From a virus, in IMG/VR virus record IMGVR_UViG_3300005253_000051, positions 17,506 through 81,505 of that record: a DNA stretch of 64,000 bases. One strand, given 5' to 3'. Shown piece after piece: positions 840 to 49,948 of this stretch. The notes below the pieces were generated by a model, which was not told the DNA's origin, ran no database searches, and worked only from the letters and a program-made list of their open reading frames with translations. A program made the translations under genes and the position numbers. Numbering within the stretch: position 1 is the stretch's first letter; each line of letters opens with the position of its first letter.

Positions 840-843
840 GATT

Positions 844-1341
844 TCATCCTGCTAAGAGTTCTTTGGCTAGGTTCTCATCCCCGGCTATGATCGCAGCACC
901 CGCGGCTTGGCGCAGCTCTGTGTCAAAATCTTGACCGCCGCTGAGATCTCGGGTGACCCAGCGAGCGAAAGCGATTTGCAACTCGCTGTCACAGACGCCA
1001 GCACGGGAAGCGTAAACGGCGGCGCGAATGGCGTCGTCGGCGGCGTTGGCGGCGTTGGCGTAGGTGATGTCGGCAGCGTAGCCGGCAGCATAGGCGGCAA
1101 CACGAGCGGCATCGGCCGCGCCGCTCGCGTCGGCGGCGCGAGCGACGTGAAGGGCGTTAGCGGCGGCATAGGCGTCGGTAGCGTTTATTTGTTCGTCCTC
1201 TGCAATCTCGATCGCGACTACGACAACAGATCGTCGATCTCCCCTGTAAAACGGCAGTGCTAGACGCGCACACGTGGCGGCGAATCCGACCGCGTTCCGC
1301 TGATCAGCCCACTTTCGATCCCATTTAGGTCGTTGAACCAT
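844..1341 (-). CDS. Alanine-rich paralogue family protein (copy 2)
   Basis: 165 residues. N-terminal block NAVGFAATCARLALPFY, then AIEIAEDEQI, a variable alanine-rich centre (AADAARVAAYAAGYAAD and similar), and the C-terminal block RWVTRDLSG...ELRQAAGAAIIAGDENLAKELL. The conserved ends with a hypervariable helical centre define the family. Tandem palindromes lie just upstream (1366-1415). No catalytic motif is visible. The function is not recognised; an immunity-like or small helical-repeat binding role is possible. Confidence 0.75.
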   Translation of the reverse strand: MVQRPKWDRKWADQRNAVGFAATCARLALPFYRGDRRSVVVVAIEIAEDEQINATDAYAAANALHVARAADASGAADAARVAAYAAGYAADITYANAANAADDAIRAAVYASRAGVCDSELQIAFARWVTRDLSGGQDFDTELRQAAGAAIIAGDENLAKELLAG

Positions 1342-1365
1342 GGATCCACCCTATCAAAAATAACT

Positions 1366-1415
1366 AAAGTAGACAACGTCTACTTTACGTCCGTATCGTT
1401 GAGAAATACGGACGT
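1366..1415. repeat. Two tandem perfect inverted repeats
   Basis: AAAGTAGAC and GTCTACTTT (9-bp arms, 3-nt loop, 1366-1386) are followed at once by ACGTCCGTAT and ATACGGACGT (10-bp arms, 9-nt loop, 1387-1415). They lie in the 120-bp gap between copies 2 and 3 of the alanine-rich family. Read on the minus strand, the second hairpin is followed by a loosely T-rich tail, so it may be a terminator; an operator for a dimeric regulator is the alternative. Confidence 0.7.
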
Positions 1416-1460
1416 AGGCTGGTTCTTGGGCCGCGCCAAATGCCTGTGAATCCGAGCTGG

Positions 1461-1972
1461 TTATGCGAGTATCTCACGAGCGAGATCTTCATCGCCTGCC
1501 ACGATCGCGGCGCCCGCGGCTTGGCGGGTTGCCTCGTCGATGGGCCACCGTGGGCTGATATCCCGTACGATCCAGCGCGCGAACGCCACATCCATATCGT
1601 GGGCATCGACGCCAGCTTTGATAGCGCGAGCGATGACGCCCCTGGTTTGGGTAGCGTACCGGGTAATAGCACCCTTGGCTTTTGTGAGTGCGCGATTAGC
1701 TATATAAAGGTCCTGTCTGGCTTCTACGATTGCGCGATTAGCATCGCTGAAAGTTGCTTTGACGATGCTTAAATCATCGTTGCTAGAGGCCGGACCGAAG
1801 GCTTTATCAGCGATATCCCAGGCATTTTTGGCAGTCTTAACAGCTTTGATAGCAGTTTTCTGAATTGCCTTGGCGAGAAGTAATTCTCTTTCGTAGAACG
1901 GCAGTGCCAAACGGGTGCATTCAGCCTCGAACTCAAACTCGTTTTTCAGATTAGCCCATTCACGTTTGTAGT

Positions 1973-1976
<4 letters not shown>
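1461..1976 (-). CDS. Alanine-rich paralogue family protein (copy 3, lysine-rich centre)
   Basis: 171 residues. It keeps the family ends (ECTRLALPFY near the N terminus; AFARWIVRDIS and RQAAGAAIVAGDEDLAREIL at the C terminus), but the centre is a charged Lys/Ala helix (KAIQKTAIKAVKTAKNAW) rather than a near-pure Ala run, with lower GC. The start overlaps the stop of copy 4 by 4 bp. It is the most diverged full-length member nearby. Function unknown. Confidence 0.75.
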
Positions 1977-2461
<485 letters not shown>

Positions 2462-2467
2462 CCCGCC

Positions 2468-2719
2468 TCACCCCGTCGCCAAGTACAACCGGCGGCGCTG
2501 CGATCGTGACATTCGCAGCATCATGACCATGATCCGCGCCCCGGCCCAATCGTATTGGCTCATGCAGCGGTCAAAGCACCACTGCACGTCCTTGAGTTTG
2601 ATGTTCCCGTCGTCCAGTACCACGTGCAGGTTACCGCCCGCCTCGTTCCCGGGTCGCGCGTAGTAGACCTGGATCAACGCCAGCACTTCAGGAACGATCG
2701 GTTTTTCTGGATGCTTCAT
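2468..2719 (-). CDS. Small conserved-type phage protein
   Basis: About 83 residues from Met at 2719; a start at 2740 is also open but overlaps the upstream gene more deeply. It contains NLHVVLDDGNIKLKDVQWC followed by a helical Met/Arg-rich end. The LHVVLDDGN block is of a kind seen in small hypothetical phage proteins; I cannot assign a function. It overlaps the upstream small membrane-protein gene by about 32 bp. Confidence 0.6.
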   Translation of the reverse strand: MKHPEKPIVPEVLALIQVYYARPGNEAGGNLHVVLDDGNIKLKDVQWCFDRCMSQYDWAGARIMVMMLRMSRSQRRRLYLATG

Positions 2720-2927
2720 CAGCCCACTTGCGCCAGCCATAGAGGTTGATACAGAAGAACGTCATCGCATTCGCAATCATCGACGGACTCCATATTTGGT
2801 AAGCGTAGATGCCCCACAAAACGATGCTCGCAATGCGAACGATCCAACCTTCGATTCGTTTCCAGGCGAGCAAAAGGTTGCCGAATACGTTGAGCGCGAA
2901 TGCTAAAAACCCGACGATTTCGATCAT
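2688..2927 (-). CDS. PnuC-like small membrane protein
   Basis: 79 residues with three hydrophobic segments and the ending CINLYGWRKWAD, which resembles the last helix of PnuC nicotinamide-riboside/NMN transporters. At this length it would be a half-transporter of SemiSWEET type working as an oligomer. NAD-precursor uptake genes are common in large phages. The assignment rests on pattern only. ATGA overlap with the upstream gene. Confidence 0.5.
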   Translation of the reverse strand: MIEIVGFLAFALNVFGNLLLAWKRIEGWIVRIASIVLWGIYAYQIWSPSMIANAMTFFCINLYGWRKWADEASRKTDRS

Positions 2928-3160
2928 GCCTCTAGCAACTTGATGGCGCGCGAGATCTGTACGAGCGGTCGATCGTGCTCAGCGGCCCACGTCACCGATT
3001 GAACGCCCAACACCACCACCGGCAATTCCCGTACGAGATCACGAAAGCATCCGAGGCAGCGCCAATGCAGGCAAGTCTCGGGATGCTTGACCTTGAACGC
3101 GCGCGGGCGCTTCCGACAGTACTCGCAGAGTAGGGGCATCAGCTTTTCTGGAATACCCAT
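2924..3160 (-). CDS. Small zinc-knuckle protein
   Basis: 78 residues with CEYC near the N terminus and CLHWRCLGC about 15 residues later, giving a likely Cys4 zinc site, then a helical tail (AIKLLEA). One of many small zinc-knuckle proteins in the left arm. Function not recognised; nucleic-acid or host-protein binding is plausible. Confidence 0.6.
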   Translation of the reverse strand: MGIPEKLMPLLCEYCRKRPRAFKVKHPETCLHWRCLGCFRDLVRELPVVVLGVQSVTWAAEHDRPLVQISRAIKLLEA

Positions 3161-3438
3161 TTGGCTTCGTAACTTTCGTTGTAACCAGGCTTGTCATACA
3201 TCACTTGCCATCCGGCGGCGCGGAACATTCCTTCGATGTCAAGCCATCCCCTATCGAAGATACACGTTCGATCGAGTCCAGCATCGACTAATCGTTTCAC
3301 CACTTCGTTTTGAAGGATGGTTACATATCCGTTGCGGTAGTTCTCACAAATGAGATCGTTGAACACCTCGATCACGACACTAGGAATGGTTTCTTTTTTG
3401 TGAGCTGCTGCTTCGTCGGGTCGTATGGGTCTATCCAT
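3139..3438 (-). CDS. Hypothetical protein, 99 aa
   Basis: The start at 3438 (MDRPIRPDE) is chosen because GGAGGA lies seven bases upstream; the open frame extends to 3513 without a good ribosome site. Mixed alpha/beta composition with SVVIEVFNDLICENY and a C-terminal YEAKWVFQKS. No recognised domain. It overlaps the downstream gene by 22 bp. Confidence 0.6.
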   Translation of the reverse strand: MDRPIRPDEAAAHKKETIPSVVIEVFNDLICENYRNGYVTILQNEVVKRLVDAGLDRTCIFDRGWLDIEGMFRAAGWQVMYDKPGYNESYEAKWVFQKS

Positions 3439-3455
3439 GGAAGTCCTCCATTTCA

Positions 3456-3935
3456 TCAATGCCTCCTGGCTGAGAGCACGTTCCGGGCGCCTGAGATCGC
3501 GCGCTCGTCCCACAGCAGTGACGGCATGTACGGCGCACGCCAGTACTTCGCCACTTTTTCAGCGAGCGCGACGCTGAAGGTTGTGTACGGTGGATCGTCG
3601 AACTCGAAGCGTTCGATATCGATAGGGCGCTCGCAGTCTTCGGTGCACAGATTGAAATTCGGAGCGCCTGCTATCGACAGCGTTTTGTTGTAGGTCGAGT
3701 GGCCCTGCGGCAGCACTTTGTCGTCAAGGGCGTAGTCGATCGACGGCAGCATGAAATCGAACACGTGCCAGGAACACACGGGCCCGTAGCCAATGGCACG
3801 ATATCGGTACATTTCATGAGCGCTGAGGGGAGGGGGGTGATCGGACAGCGCCAACGCGAAACTCGACGTGCGCACGTCGTTGACGGTCACGTAGTTGAGG
3901 TTGGTGAAGAGGATGTACGTTATTTTGCTCATCAC
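3456..3935 (-). CDS. Hypothetical protein, 159 aa
   Basis: A 159-residue acidic-neutral protein starting MMSKITYILFTNLNYV. Contains HEMYRYRAIGYGP and RFEFDDPPYTTFSVALAEK. No membrane segment and no recognised motif. Its start overlaps the end of the next alanine-rich gene by 4 bp, placing it in the same minus-strand operon. Confidence 0.6.
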   Translation of the reverse strand: MMSKITYILFTNLNYVTVNDVRTSSFALALSDHPPPLSAHEMYRYRAIGYGPVCSWHVFDFMLPSIDYALDDKVLPQGHSTYNKTLSIAGAPNFNLCTEDCERPIDIERFEFDDPPYTTFSVALAEKVAKYWRAPYMPSLLWDERAISGARNVLSARRH

Positions 3936-4486
3936 CTGTGGACGCTACGCCTTCGGGAATATTCAAGCAGCTGCCGGGCTAGATCCTCATCGCCGGCCAC
4001 GACGGCTGCGCCCGCGGCAGCGCGTAGTTCTTCGTCTAAATCTCGACCACGGCTGAGATCTCGGATGACCCAGCGTGCAAAGGCGATCTGAATCTCACTG
4101 GAATCGACACCAGCGTGAGAAGCGTCGGCGGCGGCGTAGGTGACATAGGCGGCAGCGGAGTCGTCGGTATAGGGGGAGTTGGTAGCGTGAGCGGCGGCCC
4201 AAGCGGTAGCACTGGCGACGCGAGCAGCGTCGGCGGCGGCATAGGCGGCAGTGGCGGCATAGGCGGCGCGGGTGGCGCGGGCGGCAGCGCGAGGGGCGCC
4301 GCGAGCGGCGGCGCTAGCAGCGGCACTATCTATTTGCTTCTTGTTCGCATAGCGCTCCGCAATCTTGATTGCAGCTATGACAGCAGATTGTTGATCGCCG
4401 TTATAAAACGGCAGCGCCAGACGCGCGCATTCAACTGCGAATCCAACTGCATTGCGGAGATTACTCCATTTCCGATCGTATTTCAC
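3932..4486 (-). CDS. Alanine-rich paralogue family protein (copy 5), GTG start
   Basis: About 184 residues. The GTG at 4486 is preferred because it aligns with the family N terminus (KYDRKWSNLRNAVGFA), overlaps the upstream stop as GTGA and follows GGCGGAG; an ATG at 4516 is also in frame. Family C-terminal block AFARWVIRDLSRGRDLDEEL and AVVAGDEDLARQLL. The long Ala-rich centre includes AAYVTYAAADA. Ends YSRRRSVHR, a basic extension absent from other copies. Function unknown. Confidence 0.75.
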   Translation of the reverse strand: MKYDRKWSNLRNAVGFAVECARLALPFYNGDQQSAVIAAIKIAERYANKKQIDSAAASAAARGAPRAAARATRAAYAATAAYAAADAARVASATAWAAAHATNSPYTDDSAAAYVTYAAADASHAGVDSSEIQIAFARWVIRDLSRGRDLDEELRAAAGAAVVAGDEDLARQLLEYSRRRSVHR

Positions 4487-4695
4487 GCACTCCGCCCCCA
4501 CGCCAATTCGTTGCACCGAATTTCATCTTTACAACGAGGACAGAAAACAACTTTCCACATGATATCCGGGGTCTCTCGGTCGTACACCGTGCGTATATCA
4601 GAAGGCTCGTATTCTGCAAGCACGAGACAGTTGCGGCACCGCGCACGCGCTACGACATTCACCTTATTCGGATCTTCTATGATTTTAGCCATCAC
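4483..4695 (-). CDS. Small zinc-ribbon protein
   Basis: 70 residues with CRNC and, some 30 residues later, CPRC (KVVFCPRCKDEI), a typical two-knuckle zinc ribbon. Coupled to the next gene by GTGA and to the previous one by ATGA. Likely binds zinc; partner unknown. Confidence 0.6.
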   Translation of the reverse strand: MMAKIIEDPNKVNVVARARCRNCLVLAEYEPSDIRTVYDRETPDIMWKVVFCPRCKDEIRCNELAWGRSA

Positions 4696-8367: not shown

Positions 8368-9835
8368 GTCGCATCTTGAAAGGCGATGCGCTGCCATTGC
8401 TAGTTCGTCGAGAACTGCGACGAGCCCGTCGCATCTTGAAAGGCGATGCGCTGCCATTGCTACGTCGCGTGCCACGCGCCAGGAGACGAGTTGGTGTGCC
8501 GTCGCATCTTGAAAGGCGATGCGCTGCCATTGCTACCTTCCTCTCGGCCGCGGGGTCGCATCTTGAAAGGCGATGCGCTGCCATTGCTACAGCACGACCA
8601 ACGTCGTTGGTTACGGCACCGACGTGTCGCATCTTGAAAGGCGATGCACTGCCATTGCTACCGCGAGCCATCGGTAAACAGTCGCTCGGCTCACTCCGTC
8701 GCATCTTGAAAGGCGATGCGCTGCCATTGCTACGTGGCCGACGCGGCGAAGATCCTGGGCGTATCCACGTCGCATCTTGAAAGGCGATGCGCTGCCATTG
8801 CTACCTCCTCGATGTAGTCGCATTCGACGACCGAGCACGAAAGGTCGCATCTTGAAAGGCGATGCGCTGCCATTGCTACTAGACGGACCGTCTTCGAGTA
8901 CCCGTGATCCAGTCCGTCGCACCTTGAAAGGCGATGCGCTGCCATTGCTACCCGCGCTGGGATCAATTCCGTGAGGAGATCAGACTCGACGTCGCATCTT
9001 GAAAGGCGATGCGCTGCCATTGCTACAAACCAGCGGCGGCGTTCGCGTTCGCTCCCTCCCCCAGTCGCATCTTGTAAGGCGATGCGCTGCCATTGCTACG
9101 CACCAACAGCGCGACGACTGCGCAGAATGACTGGGAGTCGCATCTTGTAAGGCGATGCGCTGCCATTGCTACAGCATATCCATGGAGGAGCACCCCGAGC
9201 TATCAGCCAAGGTCGCATCTTAAAAGGCGATGCGCTGCCATTGCTACGGATGCGGTGCGTACGGCGATTGCGTGAGACAAAGTGAGTCGCATCTTAAAAG
9301 GCGATGCGCTGCCATTGCTACCGAGCTGGGCGACGGCGAACAGAAAACAATTCTGGTCGTCGCATCTTAAAAGGCGATGCGCTGCCATTGCTACATGCGG
9401 CGCACGCCGGTGAGAACAATGCTTCCGCGACGTCGCATCTTAAAAGGCGATGCGCTGCCATTGCTACAGGCAACCTGGCCCCTAGTGGAGTGGACAATTC
9501 GACTGGTCGCATCTTAAAAGGCGATGCGCTGCCATTGCTACACGATGACATTTTTGCGTGCCCATTCATCTGGTGCGACGTCGCATCTTAAAAGGCGATG
9601 CGCTGCCATTGCTACGGATCGGTGCTCTAGCAATCAGCCCACGCTCTTTCGCGTCGCATCTTAAAAGGCGATGCGCTGCCATTGCTACCGTGAAGCCTAC
9701 TGGCGACAGAGCTATCCGGGCACCGTGTCGCATCTTAAAAGGCGATGCGCTGCCATTGCTACAGCCCTACGTAAACGTGTCGATCTGCGTTGATCTCGCG
9801 TCGCATCTTGAAAGGCGATGCGCTGCCATTGCTAC
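8368..9835 (-). CRISPR. Type V CRISPR array, 21 repeats and 20 spacers
   Basis: Repeats are 36 bp, starting at 8368, 8428, 8501, 8555, 8626, 8698, 8769, 8844, 8916, 8991, 9064, 9137, 9212, 9286, 9359, 9432, 9506, 9580, 9653, 9727 and 9800. Spacers are 35-39 nt, except 24 nt (8404-8427) and 18 nt (8537-8554) at the left end. Each repeat holds a 6-bp stem CGCATC/GATGCG. Loop variants cluster: repeats 1-10 and 21 TTGAAAGG, 11-12 TTGTAAGG, 13-20 TTAAAAGG. The two stem variants (repeats 5 and 9) become G-U wobbles only in minus-strand RNA, and that orientation puts the hairpin at the repeat 3' end as in type V crRNAs. The left terminal repeat has a changed last base. The right terminal repeat contains the effector stop codon, so there is no separate leader; the array is probably read through from the effector. 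Confidence 0.97.
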
Positions 9836-11367
9836 GGCGCCTCTGGATCTTTGTGTTTTTTCGCAAACCTAGGCGTGCTTTTTCGAGTGGTTGGGTTACG
9901 GACGTTTCCGATCGCATACATATTCATCATGTTTTGCGTGCTTACGCGGTCACGATCTTCTACGACACCACAGCCCCCACACGTCACCACGCGCTCGGGC
10001 CCGTAGCTGTTGACGAAGCTGCAAGCCGGGCAATGGTTGGTCGTATCGACCGCACAGACGACGGAAACACCCGTGATGCGGCCAAACACGCGCGTGATCT
10101 CTTCAATCACCTCGCCGGGCGCGGCATGATGACCCTGGCGTCGAGCCGGCTTCGGAAGGCTCGTTTTGTTTTCCTTCATCTTCTTGTGGCAGGAATCCTT
10201 GATGACCGCATGCGCGTAGCGTCGGCGTAGATCACGCAGCCAGACGCGCACGTCGTTGCGCCGCCGGGTGACCGACCGGTTACGACACCCTGCTTCGTAC
10301 TGCCACAAGTGCCGCTCCTTCTTGATCCACTTGGTGTGCTCTCCTGGTTTTGCGACACGTCGAACGCTCAGTGTCGATTTCAGTCGTGCGAAAAGTTTTT
10401 TGTTCGAGAATCCGCAAACGGCCAAAATGACGCTCCAAAAACGCTCTTGTTTTTGTAACTCCACAAGGTTCTGATCACGCGCTGATCGTATCCGATCAGC
10501 TTGATCAGCATGCTTCATCCATTTAGGAGGGAGCACCAACTCGTACTCGGCACCGTCGTCACCACGCGCGTAAGCGATGCGCATGCCGTCGTCGGTCTTA
10601 CGCCAACCGACATCGATAGCGACAGCGCCTCGCTCGGCGTTGTCTTTGCGCTCGGGGATATCGCGGCGCGTGAACTGCACAGACCAGATGACACGATCTG
10701 CGACGTACTTGCGGGCGATCTTGACCCACGTGGCCGTACCTTGAAGGGGACGATGCATCTCGAAAGGTAGTGGCTCGGCCCACACAGGCGCTTGGCCTTT
10801 GGATCCCACACGAAGACGGAGCGTGTAGCGCTGTTGCTTTTTCTTACGAGGATCCGGCGCCGACTTGATCAAGAACATCCGGTCTGGATCCTTGTCGCGC
10901 TGGATTTGGACCGCACACATATCACCCTGGCGCCAGCTGCGGAATTTCACCAGCGAGAAAGATTCAGTCTCTTTCCAAGCCGCCGAAAAGTCTTGTTCGA
11001 TCACAAGATAGGTGCCCCAGTATAGGCCACCTTCGGCCGCTTTCTTGCGGAACGGCTTCACGTCAAGAGGAGGCTCAGAACGGTACTGCTTGCGCAGTGC
11101 CTTGTAATGAGCGCGGCAAACCGGACAGAATTTCTTGCACTCGTGCTTTCGTGGTTTGCGTTTCTTGCTTTCCGCTTTATCACAGGTCGAACAAGATTTT
11201 TTGCACACGTGTGTTGCCGGTGAAGGGGGACGATCCCCGCCCCACATAGTCGTGCGCCTCTCGTTCTCCGCTTCGACGAGACTGTTGTAGTAGACACGGC
11301 CCAGGTTCATTTGGGCACACAAGGTGTCCCCACCGGGGAGTGCTCCGTACTTGTAGACTTTGGTCAT
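9832..11367 (-). CDS. Miniature type V effector, Cas12m (V-U1)-like
   Basis: 511 residues. The N terminus (VYKYGALPG...NSLVEAENERR) resembles Cas12m proteins. Residues 53-84 carry two CX3CX2C clusters (C55, C59, C62; C77, C81, C84), an unusual N-terminal zinc-type insert. RuvC-I is AVAIDVGW (Asp252). At the expected RuvC-II site the sequence is HAVIKDSCH, with Lys390-Asp391 where Glu is normal. Zinc ribbon CPAC...CGGC (446-466) and RuvC-III EDRDRVSTQN (Asp473). Adjacent to a 21-repeat array whose last repeat supplies the TAG stop. No cas1, cas2 or cas4 in the locus. It should bind crRNA and target DNA; the missing Glu suggests binding-only interference, as known for Cas12m, or altered cleavage. 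A TnpB-derived relative outside named subtypes is possible. Confidence 0.85.
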   Translation of the reverse strand: MTKVYKYGALPGGDTLCAQMNLGRVYYNSLVEAENERRTTMWGGDRPPSPATHVCKKSCSTCDKAESKKRKPRKHECKKFCPVCRAHYKALRKQYRSEPPLDVKPFRKKAAEGGLYWGTYLVIEQDFSAAWKETESFSLVKFRSWRQGDMCAVQIQRDKDPDRMFLIKSAPDPRKKKQQRYTLRLRVGSKGQAPVWAEPLPFEMHRPLQGTATWVKIARKYVADRVIWSVQFTRRDIPERKDNAERGAVAIDVGWRKTDDGMRIAYARGDDGAEYELVLPPKWMKHADQADRIRSARDQNLVELQKQERFWSVILAVCGFSNKKLFARLKSTLSVRRVAKPGEHTKWIKKERHLWQYEAGCRNRSVTRRRNDVRVWLRDLRRRYAHAVIKDSCHKKMKENKTSLPKPARRQGHHAAPGEVIEEITRVFGRITGVSVVCAVDTTNHCPACSFVNSYGPERVVTCGGCGVVEDRDRVSTQNMMNMYAIGNVRNPTTRKSTPRFAKKHKDPEAP

Positions 11368-15694: not shown

Positions 15695-15780
15695 TTTTTA
15701 GCTCCATACGTTTTGTCTTGAACTACCAAGCGTGCAAAGGCGATCTGAATCTCGCTGAAATCTACGCCGGCGCGAGCCAT
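15679..15780 (-). pseudogene. Truncated remnant of the alanine-rich family
   Basis: An open frame of 33 codons reads ARAGVDFSEIQIAFARLVVQ, an almost exact match to the conserved segment AGVDSSEIQIAFARWVVRDL of full-length members, and then continues in unrelated sequence to a stop. The N-terminal domain and the C-terminal ELRQAAGAAIVAGDE block are missing. This is a decayed or recombined fragment of a tenth family copy. Confidence 0.65.
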
Positions 15781-15783
15781 GAC

Positions 15784-15975
15784 TCACCCGTCCGCTGCAA
15801 TTGAGCGGGCCCAGTACTGAGCCGCTCTGTCGGTCGCTGCTTGTGCGACGTCGTAAAGTCCCCGGGTACGAGCGTCGCGAGCAAGCGTCTCCCACTGTCG
15901 CGCGTTGACTCCTAGCGCCATACGCAGGGTGCTCCGGGTCGGACCGTACGTGCAAGTTGAAAACTTGTTGGTCAT
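15784..15975 (-). CDS. Hypothetical protein, 63 aa
   Basis: MTNKFSTCTYGPTRSTLRMA then a helical LARDARTRGLYDVAQAATD ending RSIAADG. No strong ribosome site. Lies just upstream of the family remnant. Confidence 0.4.
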   Translation of the reverse strand: MTNKFSTCTYGPTRSTLRMALGVNARQWETLARDARTRGLYDVAQAATDRAAQYWARSIAADG

Positions 15976-16005
15976 GCTGGGTAGACGATCCCAGTCCTGA
16001 TCTAT

Positions 16006-16152
16006 TCATCGGATTCGACCGTGCCCACGTCGTGATCCCTTCTTTGGGTGGCATGTTCCGCCGTCCCATTCGCATTTACCACCAAGTACGCGAATCCAGT
16101 TGCCGCACTTAGCGCAGATTTCTGCGCGAGGGTTAGGTGGATAATCGATCAT
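16006..16152 (-). CDS. 48-aa zinc-knuckle protein
   Basis: Short gene joined to its upstream neighbour by ATGA. CAKCGNW, then KCEWDGGTC, gives four cysteines in zinc-ribbon spacing; the tail is basic (KKGSRRGHGRIR). Likely a small zinc-binding nucleic-acid protein. Confidence 0.55.
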   Translation of the reverse strand: MIDYPPNPRAEICAKCGNWIRVLGGKCEWDGGTCHPKKGSRRGHGRIR

Positions 16153-16355
16153 CGCTTCCACGTCTTAATTGGACCACTGCCTGTCATGCCTAGTCGTACC
16201 TCCCACAACATGGGTAACTCGATCTTCTCGAACCATCCGGGGACCGCTTTCTCGGCGGCTTCCTGCGTCCCGTACGCGGCTATAAAGTAGTTCCCTGTGC
16301 CGAAAATGCCGCCAACGCCGCGTCCGTACAGTTTGAATCGCTTTCGAGCCATCAA
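16149..16355 (-). CDS. Hypothetical protein, 68 aa
   Basis: MMARKRFKLYGRGVGGIFG then NYFIAAYGTQEAAEKAVPGW, a small alpha/beta protein with a basic start. ATGA overlap with the VWA gene stop. Unknown function. Confidence 0.55.
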   Translation of the reverse strand: MMARKRFKLYGRGVGGIFGTGNYFIAAYGTQEAAEKAVPGWFEKIELPMLWEVRLGMTGSGPIKTWKR

Positions 16356-17623
16356 CAGCTCCCAATCTCGATGACCCGGGCGCCCTCCGGCACGCTAGCC
16401 CCGTCATAGCCCACGAGCGCCACGACTTTTTGACGAGCACTCGATGGCCACGGAGGCCACACCAAGCCGCCGTCGGTGAGGTGAATCATCACGTCGAAGC
16501 GACCCGCGGCGGCGACCTTCCGGTAAGCGTCTTCGGCGCACGTGCCGCCGCGCCCTCTGAGCGTCTTTTTGATCTCAGCGGGATGGCACTTCGGTGAAAG
16601 CCAGCCCTCCCACTGAACGCCATGATCGTGGGTCACGAGGTAGACCGAGACCCCCGAAGCCTGCGAGATCTTCATCGTCTCAGCGACGAACTGGGACAAC
16701 TCTTCATCCGAAACCGAGCCCGAAGTGTCGATCACGACTGCGGCGCGCGCCGCTGTCGCGTGCCAGCCCGGAAACTGCGCCCCGCGTGCTCGTGAGCGAC
16801 GCCCGCGGCGCGTCCAGGTCTGCGAGTCCCGACCGTGGACCGCGAGCGCAGAAGCCATCCCACGACGCACCACAGCGGCCCAGTTGACGCGAGCTGGCGG
16901 AATGTCGCATATGGTCGCCAGCGCCGCACCCGCGGCGTCGCCGGCTTTGCGCGCCATGGCCTGGGCCTGCGCCGCGATCTTGGACCACTCTTGATCGAGT
17001 TGCGTTTCGCTTTTGGGCTCTTCGCCGTCCTCAGAACCCTCGGGGGGCATGACACCACAGCCGGCGCCGGGGGTAAGGCCGTCGCCGCTCATGGATACCG
17101 AAGGCTTGTCCTGTAAATTCTGAACGATCTGATCGTATATCCGCTCAGCGTGCCAAGTTTCCCACCCGGACTCAGGAAAAATTGCGCCTTTGGAATAACT
17201 CTTGAGCCCCGAGGTCACCAGTGCGTGGTTGATCGCCATGTCCCCGGCGATGTTCCAGACCGAGATCGGCTTTGCGTCAGGATTTGGTTTTCCATCTGGA
17301 AGAGTAGGAGGATACGGTTTCCCATCGGGACCGACGGGGATAACCATCACGGTCCGATTGCCTTGCCGCGCCGCGTGGCGCATTAAAAGATGCATCAGCT
17401 CGTGCGCAATCACCCACTTGAACTGGGCATCGCTGAGTTTTTTGCAAAATGGCGTGTGCAAATAGATGATCCCGTCGGCGGTGACGCCCATGGTATTGAC
17501 CTTGAAACCCACCGCGTCCTCACGAAATCGGACCTTAGCTGCGGGAATCGCGAAAAACGGGGAGTACCAACCCAGGGCGATCGATAGGCGCTTGGCTTTT
17601 TCGACGATTTTGCTCATGGTCAT
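16352..17623 (-). CDS. VWA-like protein with N-terminal metallopeptidase domain
   Basis: 423 residues. The N-terminal domain holds HELMH at 74-78 (VIAHELMHLLMRH), the zinc site of putative metallopeptidases, and DMAINHAL. A Pro/Gly/Glu linker follows, then a VWA-like domain with the MIDAS-type DTSGS (AVVIDTSGSVSDEEL) and THDHG. This is the DUF2201-type VWA/metallopeptidase architecture, which usually pairs with a MoxR AAA+ ATPase; such an ATPase is encoded 2.1 kb upstream (19754-20842). Together they may act as a chaperone or remodelling pair, perhaps in virion or DNA-protein assembly. The target is unknown. Confidence 0.85.
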   Translation of the reverse strand: MTMSKIVEKAKRLSIALGWYSPFFAIPAAKVRFREDAVGFKVNTMGVTADGIIYLHTPFCKKLSDAQFKWVIAHELMHLLMRHAARQGNRTVMVIPVGPDGKPYPPTLPDGKPNPDAKPISVWNIAGDMAINHALVTSGLKSYSKGAIFPESGWETWHAERIYDQIVQNLQDKPSVSMSGDGLTPGAGCGVMPPEGSEDGEEPKSETQLDQEWSKIAAQAQAMARKAGDAAGAALATICDIPPARVNWAAVVRRGMASALAVHGRDSQTWTRRGRRSRARGAQFPGWHATAARAAVVIDTSGSVSDEELSQFVAETMKISQASGVSVYLVTHDHGVQWEGWLSPKCHPAEIKKTLRGRGGTCAEDAYRKVAAAGRFDVMIHLTDGGLVWPPWPSSARQKVVALVGYDGASVPEGARVIEIGSC

Positions 17624-17674
17624 GCCCTTGAGACTGATCGAGGCTGCGATCTATTCATCGTGTTAACCTGAAGC

Positions 17675-17893
17675 ATGGCGCAGAAGAAAATTGTAGTAGA
17701 TGGTATGCGGCTATGGTTCAACAAGGACACCTGCACAGTAAACCCTGTCAAACCTACTCAGGGTAAATGGGCGTTGCTATTCAAAAAAGCGGCGGCGCGC
17801 GGTGGAAAATTTGAGTTGAAATTTGCTGGACTAGAAACAATGGGACACGCAGATGTTGTACTTCGATCTACCGAGTGCAAACGACTTCGATGA
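17675..17893 (+). CDS. Isolated plus-strand small protein, 72 aa
   Basis: One of two possible plus-strand genes in the left 44 kb. MAQKKIVVDGMRLWFNKDTC, then KPTQGKWALLFKKAAARGG and ADVVLRSTECKRLR. The base composition is lower in GC than its neighbours. It overlaps the 3' end of the minus-strand gene at 17868 by 26 bp. The ribosome site is weak (CTGAAGC). Possibly a recently acquired gene. Confidence 0.5.
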   Translation: MAQKKIVVDGMRLWFNKDTCTVNPVKPTQGKWALLFKKAAARGGKFELKFAGLETMGHADVVLRSTECKRLR

Positions 17894-18416
17894 GCTGGCG
17901 AGCCAGATCTTCATCGCCGGCCACGATTGCCGCGCCTGCGGCCTGGCGCAGCTCTTCGTCTAGATCTCGGCCACAACTGAGATCTCGAACTACCCAGCGA
18001 GCAAAAGCGATCTGAATCTCGCTGGAATCGACACCGGCGTCATCGGCGCCGCGGGCGGCATCGGCGGCGTCGGCAGAAGCATCAGCGGCAGCATCAGAAT
18101 CGTAGTTGACGACGTTGGCGGCACCGTAAGCAGCGTAGGCGGCGACGGAAGCAACGGCGGCAGCGGCGATAGTGGCCCAGGCGGAATGAGGGGTCGGGTA
18201 GGGGCCGGCAGGGGCAGCAGAAACAGCGGCTCCAGCTACACGATGAGCATCGGTATCATCTATTTGCTCACCGTTCGCATAACATTCTGCAATCTCGATC
18301 GCAGCTACGAGATTAGATCGTTGATCGCCGTCGTAAAACGGCAGCGCTAGACGCGCACACGCGGCGGCGAACCCAACCGCATTGCACCGGTTGTTCCAAT
18401 CTCGTTCGTAGTTCAT
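17868..18416 (-). CDS. Alanine-rich paralogue family protein (copy 8)
   Basis: 182 residues. NAVGFAAACARLALPFYDGD and AIEIAECYANGEQIDD at the N terminus; AGVDSSEIQIAFARWVVRDL and AGAAIVAGDEDLARQLIE at the C terminus. The Ala-rich centre is interrupted by GPYPTPHSAWAT. Closest in layout to copy 9. Function unknown. Confidence 0.75.
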   Translation of the reverse strand: MNYERDWNNRCNAVGFAAACARLALPFYDGDQRSNLVAAIEIAECYANGEQIDDTDAHRVAGAAVSAAPAGPYPTPHSAWATIAAAAVASVAAYAAYGAANVVNYDSDAAADASADAADAARGADDAGVDSSEIQIAFARWVVRDLSCGRDLDEELRQAAGAAIVAGDEDLARQLIEVVCTR

Positions 18417-18421
18417 GCAAT

Positions 18422-18616
18422 CTATTCAGCCGTTAATGCACGAACCGGACACCCGTTCTCGTGGTAGCCACTGTGAAGCGTGCAACCACACCATTGACAT
18501 CGCGGTCGCCCAAACGCTCTAATCTGTTCTTCACTAAATTCCCTCTGCCATTCATAAAGATGTTCCGACGAACAAAAAAACTGGGGCGGCGTACATTCAC
18601 GACAGTACGAACTCAT
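18422..18616 (-). CDS. Small multi-cysteine zinc protein, 64 aa
   Basis: CREC, FCSSEHLYEW, CQWCGC and a final NGCPVRAL place at least six cysteines and two histidines for one or two zinc sites. The FCSSEHLYEW block is like a zinc finger of the FCSxxC/H-W type seen in small phage proteins. Partner unknown. It lies between two alanine-rich family genes and overlaps the next by 4 bp. Confidence 0.6.
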   Translation of the reverse strand: MSSYCRECTPPQFFCSSEHLYEWQREFSEEQIRAFGRPRCQWCGCTLHSGYHENGCPVRALTAE

Positions 18617-19179
18617 GTTATTCCTTTGACGAGCTGGCGAGCTAGATCTTCATCACCAGCCACGATTGCTGCGCCCGCGGCTTGACGCAGCTCTTCGTCA
18701 AGATCTTGATCATCGCCGCTGAGATCTCGGACGACCCAGCGCGCGCAGGCCACTTGAATCTCGCTGTTGCAGACGCCAGCACGACCAGCGTGATTGGCAG
18801 CAGCGGCGGCGTAGTGGACGATGCGAGCGGCAGGGGCATAGCGAGCGATGCGAGCGGCAGCGACGTCGGCGGAGACGGCGTAGTAAGCGGGGGTAGCGTA
18901 GACGGCGATGGCGGCGTCTGCGGCGGCGGCGGCACAAGCGGCAACAGCAACGTCGGCGTCGGTGTCGGCATCGTAAACAACATCCTGTGCAGCGTTGGCG
19001 GCTTTGAGCGAGGCGGCGGCAACGCTAAGGGCACCGTTCACACAGCATTCTGCAATCTCGATCGCAACTACGAGATCTGATCGTCGATCACCGCTGTAAA
19101 ACGGCAGCGCCAACCGCGCGCATTCCGCAGCAAATCCAACCGCGTTGTGGGGGTTGCCCCATTCCCGTTCGTAGTTCAT
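18613..19179 (-). CDS. Alanine-rich paralogue family protein (copy 9)
   Basis: 188 residues. NAVGFAAECARLALPFYSGD, AIEIAECCVNG, then the longest Ala-rich centre (ACAAAAADAAIAVYATPAYY), and the C-terminal RWVVRDLSGDDQDLDEELRQ plus AGDEDLARQLVKG. The pair with copy 8 suggests a local duplication separated by the zinc protein. Function unknown. Confidence 0.75.
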   Translation of the reverse strand: MNYEREWGNPHNAVGFAAECARLALPFYSGDRRSDLVVAIEIAECCVNGALSVAAASLKAANAAQDVVYDADTDADVAVAACAAAAADAAIAVYATPAYYAVSADVAAARIARYAPAARIVHYAAAAANHAGRAGVCNSEIQVACARWVVRDLSGDDQDLDEELRQAAGAAIVAGDEDLARQLVKGIT

Positions 19180-19434
19180 TTACGCCTTGGACGAGCTGGT
19201 GAGCCACTGGCGTAAATCTTCATCAAGATGATCTTCGATGGAGCTGTCCGAAGAGAAGTAAGGGACCTCCTTACCGGACGCGATCGCTATGCCAGCTCGG
19301 ATCGCGCCAGCGATCGCGACCCGTACGCTGTCGTTGAATACTCGAAAATCCCTTCGATCCTGGAAAGGAATGGGGATCTCCCATCGACATTTTGTGTCGT
19401 TGTAGTAGATCTCCAACTTCATGATTTTGCTCAT
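19180..19434 (-). CDS. Hypothetical protein, 84 aa
   Basis: MSKIMKLEIYYNDTKCRWEI, then SVRVAIAGAIRAGIAIASG and an acidic end. Tightly packed between neighbours. Unknown function. Confidence 0.55.
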   Translation of the reverse strand: MSKIMKLEIYYNDTKCRWEIPIPFQDRRDFRVFNDSVRVAIAGAIRAGIAIASGKEVPYFSSDSSIEDHLDEDLRQWLTSSSKA

Positions 19435-24830: not shown

Positions 24831-25583
24831 CTAGAAGAGACTGTGAATGGCAAATTCTGGGTTAAGACCTTGGGGAATCACGGTGCTAGAAGCATTGTTG
24901 GTGAATGCAAACACCTCCAGAAAATCTCCAGCAGTTAGATCGAAATCGCTAGCAAACTCTGTGGTGACGTCAAACCCAACGGTTCCTGTCAAAGTTTCCG
25001 TGGCTTCTACAAGGATTCCGTTGATGGCAATCGTAAGCCTCTGCGTGTGATTGGCAATGGGAGCAACTGTCCCGTACTTGGCGGTAACAGCATACCGACC
25101 GGGGCTAGCGATCACGAAACGACTGAGTGGAAGATTTACGATTCCACCGAAATCGTATTCGAGCGTATTGAACAAGAGCTTCGTATCAGGAAAACCCGCA
25201 GGGATTGCTTGCGTGACCGTATTCCGCATCTTCCCTGCAGCAGTTGCCTCTCCTGCCGACGAAACCCCTTGATTGAGGATGAATGGCTGCGGGACCAAGG
25301 AGCCATCTGGTTGAGCGCCAGGTTGAGGCTGAGTCGATCCGAACTCACGGCGAATCGTGTGCCACGAGCTAGCCCAAACATCGACCGCATCAGGAGACTC
25401 GTCGGCTAGACGCGTGACCGTGATGTCGATGTCGTCTGCCGTAACTTGGAAGCCACCTTCGTTCGGCGCCACAATATCAGGGACGAGGTTTCGCGGAGGG
25501 TTGACCAGTCCATGAGGAAGAGAAACCGGAACACCAACAACTAGGCCGGTGAACTGGACGATGCTTTCGATTTTGATTCCCAT
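24831..25583 (-). CDS. Virion-type protein with C1q-like C-terminal domain (paralogue A)
   Basis: 250 residues. N-terminal base domain (VQFTGLVVGVPVSLPHGLV; PDIVAPNEGGFQVT; VDVWASSWHTIRREFGS; QPDGSLVPQPFILNQG) and a C-terminal domain with LSRFVIASPGRYAVTAKYG and LTAGDFLEVFAFTNN, a pattern resembling C1q/TNF-like jelly rolls. One of three tandem copies; the divergent C-terminal tips suggest receptor-binding or decoration diversity. Confidence 0.65.
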   Translation of the reverse strand: MGIKIESIVQFTGLVVGVPVSLPHGLVNPPRNLVPDIVAPNEGGFQVTADDIDITVTRLADESPDAVDVWASSWHTIRREFGSTQPQPGAQPDGSLVPQPFILNQGVSSAGEATAAGKMRNTVTQAIPAGFPDTKLLFNTLEYDFGGIVNLPLSRFVIASPGRYAVTAKYGTVAPIANHTQRLTIAINGILVEATETLTGTVGFDVTTEFASDFDLTAGDFLEVFAFTNNASSTVIPQGLNPEFAIHSLF

Positions 25584-25594
25584 AGTCCTGAACC

Positions 25595-26344
25595 CTAGAA
25601 GTTGCTGTGGATGGCGAACACAGGCTCGCGGCCGTTTGCAATCAGTGTACTAGCGCCGGCAGACAAGAATGCAAATACCTCCAGGAAATCTCCAGCGACT
25701 AGATTGAAGTCGCTAGCGAATACTGGAGTGATTCCGAACGCGATTGATGCTGTCAATTCTTCTACAGTCTCCACAAAAATCCCGTTGATGGCAATCGTAA
25801 GTTGCTGCGTGAAAGCAGCACCGGGGGCAGTCGTCGCATACTTGGATGTAACGGTATACCGACCAGGTTCAGTGATCACGAAACGATCAAGTCCGATGTT
25901 TACGATTCCACCGAAATCGTAATCGATCGAGTCAAACGCGACCTTTGTGTTTACCCCTGCGGGGATTGCTTGAATAACAAGCGCTCGTATCTTTGCGGTA
26001 ACAGCTGCCTCCCCTGATTCCGAAACCCCTTGGTTGATGATGAACGGCTGTGGAACCAGCGAACCATCCGGCTGAATACCGGGCTGAGGCTGAGTCGATC
26101 CGAACTCGCGGCGGATCGTGTGCCACGAGCTAGCCCAAACATCGACCGAATCAGGAGACTCGTCGGCTAGGCGCGTAACCGTAATGTTGGTGTCATCGGC
26201 AGTGACCAGGAAGCCGCCTTCGTTTGGCGCCACAACATCAGGGACGAGCTTTCGCGGAGGGTTGACCAGCCCGTGGGGAAGAGAGACCGGATCATCAACA
26301 ATGAGATCGATGAACTGGACGATTGCTTCGATTTTGATTCCCAT
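25595..26344 (-). CDS. Virion-type protein with C1q-like C-terminal domain (paralogue B)
   Basis: 249 residues, same two-domain layout as its neighbours: PDVVAPNEGGFLVTADDTN, VDVWASSWHTIRREFGS, then LDRFVITEPGRYTVTSKYA and LVAGDFLEVFAFLSA. Overall very close to A and C, with substitutions concentrated in the C-terminal half. Tandem duplication is evident. Confidence 0.65.
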   Translation of the reverse strand: MGIKIEAIVQFIDLIVDDPVSLPHGLVNPPRKLVPDVVAPNEGGFLVTADDTNITVTRLADESPDSVDVWASSWHTIRREFGSTQPQPGIQPDGSLVPQPFIINQGVSESGEAAVTAKIRALVIQAIPAGVNTKVAFDSIDYDFGGIVNIGLDRFVITEPGRYTVTSKYATTAPGAAFTQQLTIAINGIFVETVEELTASIAFGITPVFASDFNLVAGDFLEVFAFLSAGASTLIANGREPVFAIHSNF

Positions 26345-26359
26345 AGTCCGAACCCAACC

Positions 26360-27106
26360 CTAGAAGTTGCTATGAACAGCGAACATAGATTCACGAAGAC
26401 CCGTGAGTGTGGAGGCGCCAGTGTTGAGTAGAGCAAACACCTCCAAGAAATCTCCAACGGCTAAATCGAAGTCGCTAGCGAATACTACGGTAACTCCCCG
26501 GCCAGCGATTGATGTAAGAGTTTGAGTAGCCTTTACGAGAATCCCGTTGATGGCAATCGAAAGCCTTTGCACGTGGTTGGCACCAACAGATTGTGTGCCG
26601 TACCTAGCTTCGACGCTGTATCGACCAGCGGTAACGATCACGAATCGATCGAGCCCGATGTTTACGATTCCACCGAAATCGTAATCGGTCACATCGAATG
26701 TGAGTTTCGTGTCTGCCGCCGCTGGAAGCACTTGAGCGACAGAAGCTGTAATCTTCCCGGAGACGGCCGCCTCTGCCGCTTGTGAAACCCCTTGGTTGAT
26801 CACGAATGGCTGCGGAACCAGTGAACCATCTGGCTGGATACCGGGCTGGGGTTGAGTCGATCCGAACTCGCGCCGCATTGTGTGCCACGAGCTGGCCCAG
26901 ACATCGACCGCATCAGGAGAATCGTCGGCAAGACGCGTGACTGTGATGTCGATGTCGTCTGCGGTAACTTGGAAACCGCCTTCGTTCGGCACCAAAAGGT
27001 CGGGGACAAGATTTCGCGGAGGGTTGACCAACCCGTGGGGAAGAGCGACCGGCACGCCAACAGCTAGATTGGTGAACTGGACGATGCTTTCGATTTTAAT
27101 TCCCAT
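26360..27106 (-). CDS. Virion-type protein with C1q-like C-terminal domain (paralogue C)
   Basis: 248 residues; first gene of the leftward virion block. NLAVGVPVALPHGLVNPPRN, PDLLVPNEGGFQVT, VDVWASSWHTMRREFGS, then LDRFVIVTAGRYSVEARYG and LAVGDFLEVFALLNTG. A 107-bp gap upstream likely holds the promoter; 9-bp inverted repeats ATAACTCTA/TAGAGTTAT lie near the two ends of that gap. Confidence 0.65.
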   Translation of the reverse strand: MGIKIESIVQFTNLAVGVPVALPHGLVNPPRNLVPDLLVPNEGGFQVTADDIDITVTRLADDSPDAVDVWASSWHTMRREFGSTQPQPGIQPDGSLVPQPFVINQGVSQAAEAAVSGKITASVAQVLPAAADTKLTFDVTDYDFGGIVNIGLDRFVIVTAGRYSVEARYGTQSVGANHVQRLSIAINGILVKATQTLTSIAGRGVTVVFASDFDLAVGDFLEVFALLNTGASTLTGLRESMFAVHSNF

Positions 27107-28026: not shown

Positions 28027-28657
28027 GATGTGCCCAACTAATGCCGTTTACGATCCTACTGATTTGTGATCTAGAAACACCGTATTTTTTGGAAAGCGCT
28101 TTCTTGGTCATTGAGTCTTTGGCGTACGCTTTACGAATCATTTTTACTTGGTACTCGTTCAGCTTTTCTCCTGGTTTTGGAATACCTTTATTCTGAAATG
28201 TATTCTGTCCCCAACGAACACCATTTACGATTTTCCTGATCTGCCCTTGGGACACACCATAATTTTCAGCTAGTGCCTTAGCCGTCACTGAACTTTCAGC
28301 GTATGCTTTACGAATCGCCGTTACTTGGTCCCTGCTCAGCTTTTGTGCTGGTATGCCTTTCTTCTGAAAGACATTCCTGCCCTTGTTCCACATGTCGCGG
28401 CTATTATCAGCAGCCGTTCCTAACCACAGGTGATCAGGCCGGACACAGATAGGATTATCGCAGTGATGACATACCATCAGCCCTTCGGGGATTTCCCCGT
28501 AAACTAATTCCCACGACACACGGTGTGCTCTACGTGATGACCATGGCCCTGAACGAACTTGACCGTAGTCGCCCCGAGTCTTAGAGCCAGTCCACAGCCA
28601 GCACTCCCCCGACTTGTCTACCTTGACCCAGAACCGATCAGCTAATGCCCTAGTCAT
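28019..28657 (-). CDS. HNH endonuclease with two HTH repeats
   Basis: 212 residues. N-terminal HNH of the phage/intron type (ECWLWTG; RAHRVSWELVYGEIPEGL; VCHHCDNPICVRPDHLWLG) followed by two copies of a ~50-residue helix-turn-helix unit (VTAIRKAYAESSVTAKALAE and VKMIRKAYAKDSMTKKALSK, each ending in a YGVS...QIRKIVNG-like turn). This is the layout of free-standing homing endonucleases with NUMOD-like DNA-recognition modules. AT-richer than its neighbours, consistent with acquisition. Confidence 0.85.
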   Translation of the reverse strand: MTRALADRFWVKVDKSGECWLWTGSKTRGDYGQVRSGPWSSRRAHRVSWELVYGEIPEGLMVCHHCDNPICVRPDHLWLGTAADNSRDMWNKGRNVFQKKGIPAQKLSRDQVTAIRKAYAESSVTAKALAENYGVSQGQIRKIVNGVRWGQNTFQNKGIPKPGEKLNEYQVKMIRKAYAKDSMTKKALSKKYGVSRSQISRIVNGISWAHLD

Positions 28658-28781
28658 TTTTCATCACCGGGAAAACACACCTGGTGAGCCTATCGACTTT
28701 TCTCTCTAGTGACAGCACGCGCCACACGAACATGCTCACCCACATAGACAACCCCACCACCACAAACTCGATGCCTGTCAT
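28650..28781 (-). CDS. 43-aa single-span membrane peptide
   Basis: IEFVVVGLSMWVSMFVWRVL forms one membrane helix at the N terminus, followed by a basic tail (ERKVDRLTRC). It begins two bases after the stop of the RiPP-like peptide gene and overlaps the HNH start by 8 bp. It might help export or act with the RiPP-like peptide; that link is positional only. Confidence 0.5.
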   Translation of the reverse strand: MTGIEFVVVGLSMWVSMFVWRVLSLERKVDRLTRCVFPVMKND

Positions 28782-28783
28782 GG

Positions 28784-28981
28784 TCAACACAGTTTCGGAA
28801 AGGCGCTCGTGCATCCCAGATTGGGATCAGAGCAAGGGCCACAGAACGTGAAGCGGTAGCAAGTAGCCTTGAGGGAACAGATAACAGACCACAGAGTGAG
28901 CACGCCGCCAGCTCGAACATGATCGAGTTGACGGACGGTGAGCCTGGACAACTTGAGCTTAGATCGTTGTTTACGTTTCAT
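28784..28981 (-). CDS. RiPP-precursor-like peptide A (double-glycine leader, Cys-rich core)
   Basis: 65 residues. Leader-like half: KLKLSRLTVRQLDHVRAGG, with the K-L-x-L-x-x-L-T-V...L...GG pattern of class I lanthipeptide-type natural-product precursors. Core-like half: TLWSVICS, TCYRFTFCGPCSDPNLGC and a 7-residue extension ending in Cys. The five core cysteines have the same spacing (5, 5, 2, 6) as in the homologue at 49775-49948. No LanB, LanC, radical SAM or cyclodehydratase gene is in the window. Alternatives: a small zinc-binding protein with a basic N terminus. Confidence 0.6.
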   Translation of the reverse strand: MKRKQRSKLKLSRLTVRQLDHVRAGGVLTLWSVICSLKATCYRFTFCGPCSDPNLGCTSAFPKLC

Positions 28982-29323
28982 CTACTCCCCTCCGATAATC
29001 GCGGTGTAGATCTCGCCGTTCACTACGGAGCCGATGCTCTGCGACGCCTTCGCCAGTTCACTTAGAACCTTTTCGAGCAGAGCTATCTCGCTTCTTCCGG
29101 CCATTCCTTGTGTTGCTATCGCGCCGCTGCTGCCCTGAATCGCGAGCATCGAGATCGCGTCGGCCGACGACTTCACCATCTCCTTGATCTGGCGAAGCGT
29201 CGCGATCTTTTCCATGATCTCGCTCTGAGCTTTTGCCATCGTCGCCGCTGCCCCGAGCACTTCCTTCTGAATCGTGTGCTTCGGAACCATCTGGATCTGT
29301 ACGTTCGCCTGTGCCTGGCTCAT
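28982..29323 (-). CDS. Hypothetical helical protein, 113 aa
   Basis: All-helical: EVLGAAATMAKAQSEIMEK, then EIALLEKVLSELAKASQSIG. No cysteines and no motif. The start lies inside the 3' part of the TSCPD gene frame. Could be a small scaffold or coiled-coil protein. Confidence 0.6.
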   Translation of the reverse strand: MSQAQANVQIQMVPKHTIQKEVLGAAATMAKAQSEIMEKIATLRQIKEMVKSSADAISMLAIQGSSGAIATQGMAGRSEIALLEKVLSELAKASQSIGSVVNGEIYTAIIGGE

Positions 29324-29672
29324 CTAGAAACCTCTTTTCTAACCAGCGGCAAATGTAGCTCACTGGACTTTCTGCAAATCGAATCGCGTGGGTATCGGTC
29401 ATCCCCGCGGGCTCGAAGCGCATGTTTTTGAACTTGTCCACAATGACTTGCAATGGCGTGCCCGTCTGCAAAAGCAGAGAGACCGCGATGGCCCACGCAT
29501 CGATAAAACCAGAGACGTCGGAACCCTGCTTGTCCATCTTGACGAAAATCTCGCCGAGACGTCCATCGGGGTAAAGCCCGACGGTAACGTAGCCCTTATG
29601 GTCCTCCTTGGCGTGGATTACGAACTTGTGCGTGATGCCGCGCCGCTCTGCGGGCAGACGTTCTCTAGTCAT
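29058..29672 (-). CDS. TSCPD-domain protein with charged C-terminal extension
   Basis: Start at 29672 (MTRERLPAERRGITHKF), next to the AAAAGGAAAA stretch. Residues 1-110 match the TSCPD domain found at the C terminus of B12-dependent ribonucleotide reductases and alone in phages: KFVIHAKEDHKGYVTVGLYP, GEIFVKMDKQGSDVSG, VDKFKNMRFEPAGMT. Beyond ~residue 120 the frame continues as an Asp/Ser/Arg/Gly-rich tail lying over the next gene in another frame; the tail may be real but disordered. A role linked to dNTP supply is inferred from the family. Confidence 0.75.
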   Translation of the reverse strand: MTRERLPAERRGITHKFVIHAKEDHKGYVTVGLYPDGRLGEIFVKMDKQGSDVSGFIDAWAIAVSLLLQTGTPLQVIVDKFKNMRFEPAGMTDTHAIRFAESPVSYICRWLEKRFLDEPGTGERTDPDGSEAHDSEGSARGSGDDGKSSERDHGKDRDASPDQGDGEVVGRRDLDARDSGQQRRDSNTRNGRKKRDSSARKGSK

Positions 29673-49269: not shown

Positions 49270-49587
49270 ATGAACTTTTTGCAGGTCATCTACTTCTATC
49301 AGACCGGGTGTCCCGCTTGTGAAGAGATACGCCCCTTGTTGGACAAGGCCGTGGCGCACTACGCGCAATGTGGCGTCGTGGTTCGCTACGTGGACGTGCA
49401 CCACGAAGGGCTTACTGCCGACACGATGCAGGTCCAGGAAACGCCCACGGTCATCGGCACACGCAACCATTCGCCGGTCACTCGCATGATCGGCGCCCAG
49501 AACGCAGATCAACGACTCGGACAGTTATTCACTGAACTACTCAGCGGCGGCTCGTGCGCGGTCCAGCCATGGCGGGGAGACGTGTAG
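49270..49587 (+). CDS. Thioredoxin-like protein
   Basis: 105 residues; IYFYQTGCPACEEIRPLLDK holds the CPAC redox site after a beta strand, and cis-Pro appears in QETPTVIG, as in thioredoxin folds. Likely a thiol-disulfide oxidoreductase or host-redox interactor. Relevant given the many Cys-rich virus proteins. Starts at the stop of the coiled-coil gene. Confidence 0.8.
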   Translation: MNFLQVIYFYQTGCPACEEIRPLLDKAVAHYAQCGVVVRYVDVHHEGLTADTMQVQETPTVIGTRNHSPVTRMIGAQNADQRLGQLFTELLSGGSCAVQPWRGDV

Positions 49588-49589
49588 AA

Positions 49590-49778
49590 ATGGTCAAGAA
49601 GGTAGAGATCAAAATCGAGCTTGATGGGGGATCGATCTCGATCGACTGCGAGAATCCCAAGGTTATTTTTTCTGCCTGGGATTCAGAATATTTGGGACGT
49701 ATTGTTTTCTCTTTGGTACAGGAGATACAAAGGCACAAAGAGAACGCCGAGGCAAAATCTCGGTCGGAGCGCCGATGA
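49590..49778 (+). CDS. Hypothetical protein, 62 aa
   Basis: MVKKVEIKIELDGGSISIDC, then IVFSLVQEIQRHKENAEAK. ATG at 49590 follows GGGGAGA. Coupled by ATGA to the RiPP-like gene. Function unknown. Confidence 0.55.
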   Translation: MVKKVEIKIELDGGSISIDCENPKVIFSAWDSEYLGRIVFSLVQEIQRHKENAEAKSRSERR

Positions 49779-49948
49779 AACGCAAACGCAAACTCAAACT
49801 GTCTAGACTCACCGTTCGTCAACTCGATCGTGTTCGAGCCGGCGGCGGCAGCTTCATCACGCTGTGGTCTGTCATTTGTTCGGGGGGGCGTACTTGCTAC
49901 CGCTTCACCTGGTGTGGCCCTTGTTCTGATCCCGCTCTTGGGTGTTGA
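49775..49948 (+). CDS. RiPP-precursor-like peptide B (double-glycine leader, Cys-rich core)
   Basis: 57 residues, too short for routine gene finding. KLKLSRLTVRQLDRVRAGGG leader, then TLWSVICS and TCYRFTWCGPCSDPALGC. Shares most residues with peptide A (28784-28981), with the same cysteine spacing; nucleotide differences are largely at third codon positions, which suggests selection on the protein. ATGA overlap with the upstream gene. No modification enzyme nearby; host enzymes or a different role would be needed. Confidence 0.6.
   Translation: MKRKRKLKLSRLTVRQLDRVRAGGGSFITLWSVICSGGRTCYRFTWCGPCSDPALGC

Follow-up and report, generated by a model that had tools for sequence, protein, structure and literature searches.

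Two class I lanthipeptide precursor-like genes on a virus genome without recognisable LanB or LanC

A small precursor-like gene, A, lies in a virus record of IMG/VR (81,505 bp), in the 64,000-nucleotide stretch analysed here as the window (positions 17,506 to 81,505 of the record). A whole-record search found a second copy, B, in the same window on the opposite strand. The two genes and the features discussed with them are as follows, in window positions:

28784-28981, minus: precursor-like gene A, 65 aa, with a LanA-type leader and a six-Cys core
28904-28981, minus: leader of A, MKRKQRSKLKLSRLTVRQLDHVRAGG, 26 aa with a GG end, which aligns with class I lanthipeptide leaders
28787-28903, minus: core of A, VLTLWSVICSLKATCYRFTFCGPCSDPNLGCTSAFPKLC, 39 aa with 6 Cys and 8 Ser/Thr
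28982-29323, minus: 113-aa gene without a family, immediately upstream of A, its stop abutting the start of A
29058-29672, minus: TSCPD-domain gene, two genes upstream of A (PF12637, E 2.5e-10)
28650-28781, minus: membrane peptide ORF, 43 aa, starting two bases after the stop of A; a neighbour only
49775-49948, plus: precursor-like gene B, 57 aa, the second copy of A (MKRKRKLKLSRLTVRQLDRVRAGGGSFITLWSVICSGGRTCYRFTWCGPCSDPALGC)
49270-49587, plus: thioredoxin-like gene (CPAC motif), two genes upstream of B (PF00085, E 1.1e-9)
60920-61627, plus: conserved 235-aa protein, candidate jelly-roll capsid, common to all 16 records of the virus group (54-64% identity by tblastn)

The ORF of A translates as MKRKQRSKLKLSRLTVRQLDHVRAGGVLTLWSVICSLKATCYRFTFCGPCSDPNLGCTSAFPKLC and is preceded by a strong RBS (GGAGGGGAGTAG-ATG), the ATG abutting the stop codon of the 28982-29323 gene, which has no relative in the related virus records described below. 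The core of A, credited in the original prediction with five Cys, carries six (residues 35, 41, 47, 50, 57 and 65); that of B carries five. Each gene belongs to a compact operon in which stop and start codons lie close together. They share 84% identity over aligned residues and differ by 34 base changes over 55 codons, distributed 7/7/20 over codon positions 1/2/3 (binomial p = 0.002), with a dN/dS of about 0.18 overall (0.132/0.717). From this third-position bias and low dN/dS, A and B are clearly, at the level of sequence, real genes under purifying selection. A spurious ORF is ruled out by the same pattern: although a second, overlapping frame is free of stops in both A and B, it is at third positions of the A/B frame that the changes concentrate. 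Thus the 65-aa ORF predicted at this site is a real gene, but the description of it as an orphan, in the sense of a single copy, was wrong.

Selection differs between the two parts of the peptides. The dN/dS between A and B is 0.07 in the leader (0.048/0.722) and 0.29 in the core (0.203/0.712). Within the core five Cys are invariant, and the variable parts are its start, a run of three residues and the C-terminus. Precursor peptides typically show this contrast between a conserved leader and a more variable core. An AlphaFold2 model of A, made with an alignment of two sequences, has a mean pLDDT of 54.8 and a low-confidence hairpin in the core.

The membrane peptide gene does begin two bases after A, as had been noted, but its suggested pairing with A is not supported: no such ORF adjoins B, and none of the 15 related records holds a relative of the peptide. 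No RBS is visible before its start.

No close homologue of A was found in IMG/VR, phage records, plasmids or 84,980 genomes; a single plasmid match was at chance level (E about 1). Searching 396 Acidobacteriota and 195 Myxococcota genomes with an A+B profile gave weak matches only, one of which (L025) is a real LanA, judged by its leader. The cores of A and B show no likeness to any known LanA core. Nor did the zinc-binding or structural family named beforehand as the competing assignment appear: A has no match in Pfam, NCBIfam or PDB, and its best PHROG match is insignificant (E 0.23).

The leaders of A and B share a basic KLKLSRxTVRQL...AGG pattern, followed by a core of 33-39 residues rich in Cys, Ser and Thr. 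A first leader profile, built from motif-selected sequences, was partly circular and was replaced by one from 18 leaders picked with NCBIfam NF038153 itself, to avoid circularity, this profile being independent but uncurated. With it, A (16.1 bits) and B (15.3 bits) rank first and second among 1,950 viral ORFs; the next-best viral ORF scores 4.9 bits, and the highest score among the 70,538 ORFs generated by 30 shuffles is 12.0 bits. In the same comparison hhalign gives E 1.3e-5, leader E-values being modest because the query is short. The leader motif together with at least four Cys occurs in 2/1,950 of the virus's own ORFs, against 0/70,538 shuffled ORFs (30 shuffles). The nearest individual leaders are those of L069 (MKKKQRKLSLSRETVRALDSLPLGKVVGG) and L063 (MKKNLPRKLNLNRETLRQLEESALQVRAGA). 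A DNA pattern for K-K-L-x-L-x-R-x-T-[LV]-R-x-L found only 16 loci over 84,980 genomes, from Acidobacteriota, Myxococcota, Eisenbacteria and one Phycisphaerae MAG. These are short ORFs, all leader-like and nearly all with Cys-bearing LanA-type cores, and LanC-like genes are present in 11/11 motif-bearing genomes examined compared with 1/14 control genomes.

The search with RiPP precursor profiles that had been proposed for A gave a divided answer: the NF038153-selected leader profile matches both peptides, whereas the curated models do not, neither NF038153 (cut-off 22 bits) nor TIGR04149, the latter even at E 10 for the model search. The RET triad of class I leaders is RLT in A and B, while Glu is present in 28/30 reference leaders, and the A/B leader is about four residues shorter before GG than the reference leaders. 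The missing curated match, the change of Glu to Leu and the shorter leader leave full membership of A and B in NF038153 unproven. However, the GG-type leader end and a core with Cys and Ser/Thr are present in both, and by leader profile and anatomy A and B appear to be divergent relatives of class I LanA. Of the predicted class I lanthipeptide-type leader-core organisation, the part that stands thus rests on the leader profile, the motif and the LanA genes in two related viruses described below; the part that does not is agreement with curated LanA profiles, the Glu of the triad and leader length.

The absence of a modification enzyme from the window, which had been noted from the outset, extends to the whole 81.5-kb record. 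The first and last 121 bases of the record are identical (a direct terminal repeat), and it is on this basis taken as a complete contig; as it has no match to LanC (PF05147) or LanB (PF04738), the host would have to supply these enzymes. Across all 16 virus records of the group there is no LanC match and no LanB match above the family cut-off, the lone sub-threshold PF04738 match being short and in G605. No radical-SAM gene was recognised among the viral proteins examined, and the virus that bears A and B has no exporter.

The viral genome encodes an integrase, a family A DNA polymerase, a helicase, ThyX, dCMP deaminase, Dam methylase, an M23 peptidase and an SLT lysozyme; among the proteins scanned from it, no terminase, portal or tailed-phage capsid was recognisable. 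The conserved 235-aa protein (60920-61627) was modelled at low confidence, and most proteins matched by the model are jelly-roll capsids, with no match attaining E 0.001. Fifteen related records (L074-L088, 39-221 kb) were found through this protein, giving a group of at least 16 records, possibly of little-known viruses without tails. A provirus search with the same capsid-like protein in 195 Myxococcota genomes found none.

Several other features of the genome were seen. Three tandem paralogues of 250 aa lie at 24831-27106 on the minus strand; their identity to the first of them is 71%, and up to eight related viruses have homologues. An Ala-rich repeat protein with many paralogues, starting MNYERDW..NAVGFAAECARLALPFY, occurs at 1-4500 and 15700-19200 of the window and at 8300-17000 of L003. 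At 8427-9835 lies a CRISPR array with about 20 copies of the repeat GTCGCATCTTGAAAGGCGATGCGCTGCCATTGCTAC and spacers mostly of 35-39 nt, adjoined by a gene for a 511-aa protein (9832-11367, minus) with a weak Cas12f-like nuclease-domain match; from their sequences the two may form a virus-borne compact type V system. The spacers have no convincing match in the 15 related viruses.

The 15 related records together contain 32,895 ORFs, and running the leader profile over them brought out two further precursors, in G598 (221 kb) and G602 (89 kb). The G598 precursor, with the ordinary leader VKKTIKKLTLKTETIKQLNDVQLGQVAGG and a core with many Cys, has an AAAGGAG RBS, lies directly downstream of another viral ORF and passes NF038153 (24.9 bits against the cut-off of 22). 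That of G602 is full-length, with the leader MKKIKATKLTLRAETIKLLTEPALREAAGG and a Cys/Thr-rich core, and scores 15.5 bits, below the NF038153 cut-off. Origin of these LanA genes from host flanks was rejected, as genes homologous to those of the present virus are spread over most of the length of both contigs. The G602 precursor adjoins, in divergent orientation, a homologue of the TSCPD gene that lies two genes upstream of A; as this neighbour is seen in G602 only, and divergently, a conserved genomic position of the precursors was rejected. A match in G611 (E 0.009) looked spurious on inspection. G602 also has a second leader-like ORF without a core (MKKIKNTKLSLNTETLKQLKTRKDACHLDEAAKATF; L106:10122-10232, minus), perhaps a decayed precursor.

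Three strict leader patterns were run over all of IMG/VR: one had no matches, one matched G598 only, and one matched seven contigs, three of which are unrelated virus records that seem to bear a lone LanA gene. These LanA-like ORFs are at about 3191-3225 of L175, 1991-2025 of L180 and 3162-3196 of L181, on records without the group's capsid-like protein; that of L181 is near a ThyX-like gene. Thus 3/6 virus records seen with lone LanA-like genes belong to this one group, the patterns being strict and not a census. With the same qualification, the sparse matches suggest that lone LanA-like genes are rare in viruses.

The best explanation of these observations, given a probability of roughly 0.55, is that A and B are lone class I LanA-type precursors carried by the virus and matured in trans by host LanBC. 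It draws its sequence-level support from two real, conserved genes, a leader-core anatomy, a LanA-like leader, the absence of LanB and LanC, and the LanA genes of two relatives. During infection or lysogeny, the class I machinery of the host (LanB dehydratase, LanC cyclase and a double-glycine leader peptidase/exporter) would recognise the leader of A and B, and, because the virus has no such enzymes, would act in trans. We infer such recognition, together with thioether formation, cleavage at the GG and a purpose for the peptides; what results would be the virus's own version of a host lanthipeptide, directed for example against competitors or superinfecting phages.

Recognition of the leader could alternatively be the whole function. 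A and B would then be decoys that occupy LanB, LanC or the exporter/peptidase, or that yield an inactive product, disarming a host lanthipeptide system, possibly an anti-phage one. A leader more conserved than the core, the replacement of a near-invariant Glu by Leu in both copies, and the lack of LanC and of any above-cut-off LanB in the 16 viruses are consistent with this, and reports of anti-phage class I LanBC clusters in Actinomycetota (PMC12360287, section 2.1.8; PMC12715929, citing Shomar et al.) make it more plausible. However, by the account of the cited paper anti-phage lanthipeptides are known from Actinomycetota alone. In addition, the leader of the G598 precursor is an ordinary one, and in A and B the core too is under purifying selection and keeps all five shared Cys, which would be needless for a pure leader decoy. 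A decoy role is considered unlikely.

It is quite improbable that A and B are unrelated small Cys-rich viral proteins, metal-binding or structural, with a basic N-terminus that is LanA-like by chance or convergence. In favour of it are the lack of a curated family match, the Leu at the key Glu position and the hairpin predicted at low confidence in the core. Against it, there is one CxxC only and no zinc-ribbon CxxC pair. Moreover, the top two places in the leader-profile ranking, beyond every shuffled ORF, the absence of the motif with at least four Cys from all of the shuffled ORFs, and the real LanA genes carried by the same virus group speak against this reading. The least probable of the readings weighed here is that the leader serves for export only, A and B being unmodified or disulfide-bonded peptides secreted through a double-glycine exporter of the host, the virus's thioredoxin-like gene near B assisting their redox chemistry. 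The GG end of the leader and the Cys-rich core would suit such peptides, and the thioredoxin-like gene, two genes upstream of B, may possibly be a redox partner. Against this, what is conserved in the leader is the segment characteristic of class I LanA, KLxLxRxT[LV]RxL, no redox gene lies near A, and an exporter is missing from the virus.

More broadly, it is conceivable, at a little under even odds, that viruses of this group capture class I LanA genes from hosts, and that the resulting enzyme-less mimics hijack or jam LanBC, as counter-defence or as borrowed weaponry. If A and B are matured by host enzymes or jam them, viruses can exploit the peptide-modifying enzymes of a host in trans, either as raw material for a viral peptide or as something to jam, and viral genomes are new ground in which to seek lanthipeptide precursors. 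The counter-defence idea is concrete and testable because some class I lanthipeptide clusters reportedly defend against phages. In the open-access literature, covered in part, no enzyme-less lanthipeptide precursors on viruses were found.

Among known systems, the closest are class I precursors with the L1a leader (NF038153, lant_leader_L1a), which share with A and B an M-K-K/R start, the KLxLxRxT[LV]RxL segment, the GG end and a core rich in Cys, Ser and Thr. A and B differ in lacking a curated score, in RLT for RET and in the roughly four residues missing before GG, and also in being on a virus with no adjoining LanB, LanC or exporter. The GG-leader family of Bacteroidetes rSAM-modified RiPPs (TIGR04149) has a similar basic KL-x-L leader and GG end, but the model match is absent, as is a radical-SAM gene among the viral proteins examined. 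Phage-carried bacteriocin gene clusters exist, for example that of sublancin in prophage SPbeta, and, by its title, the study 'Phages carry interbacterial weapons encoded by biosynthetic gene clusters' deals with such clusters. As with A and B, a ribosomal peptide is brought by a virus; however, these clusters hold modification and export genes, whereas the present virus has the precursor only. To our knowledge, the viral RiPP clusters known so far carry their own enzymes, and lone precursors recurring without enzymes in one virus group appear to be a new variant beside them. Prochlorosins, class II precursors of cyanobacteria on which one promiscuous enzyme, ProcM, acts in trans (PMC10783134), provide a model for maturation of A and B in trans, although prochlorosins are class II, with Nif11-type leaders, and are encoded in bacterial genomes. 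Finally, the anti-phage lanthipeptides termed 'lanthiphages' (Shomar et al., as cited in PMC12715929 and PMC12360287), from Actinomycetota, would share with A and B the use of class I LanBC chemistry in phage-host conflict, but as described there they are a host-encoded defence, whereas A and B are lone precursors carried by the virus.
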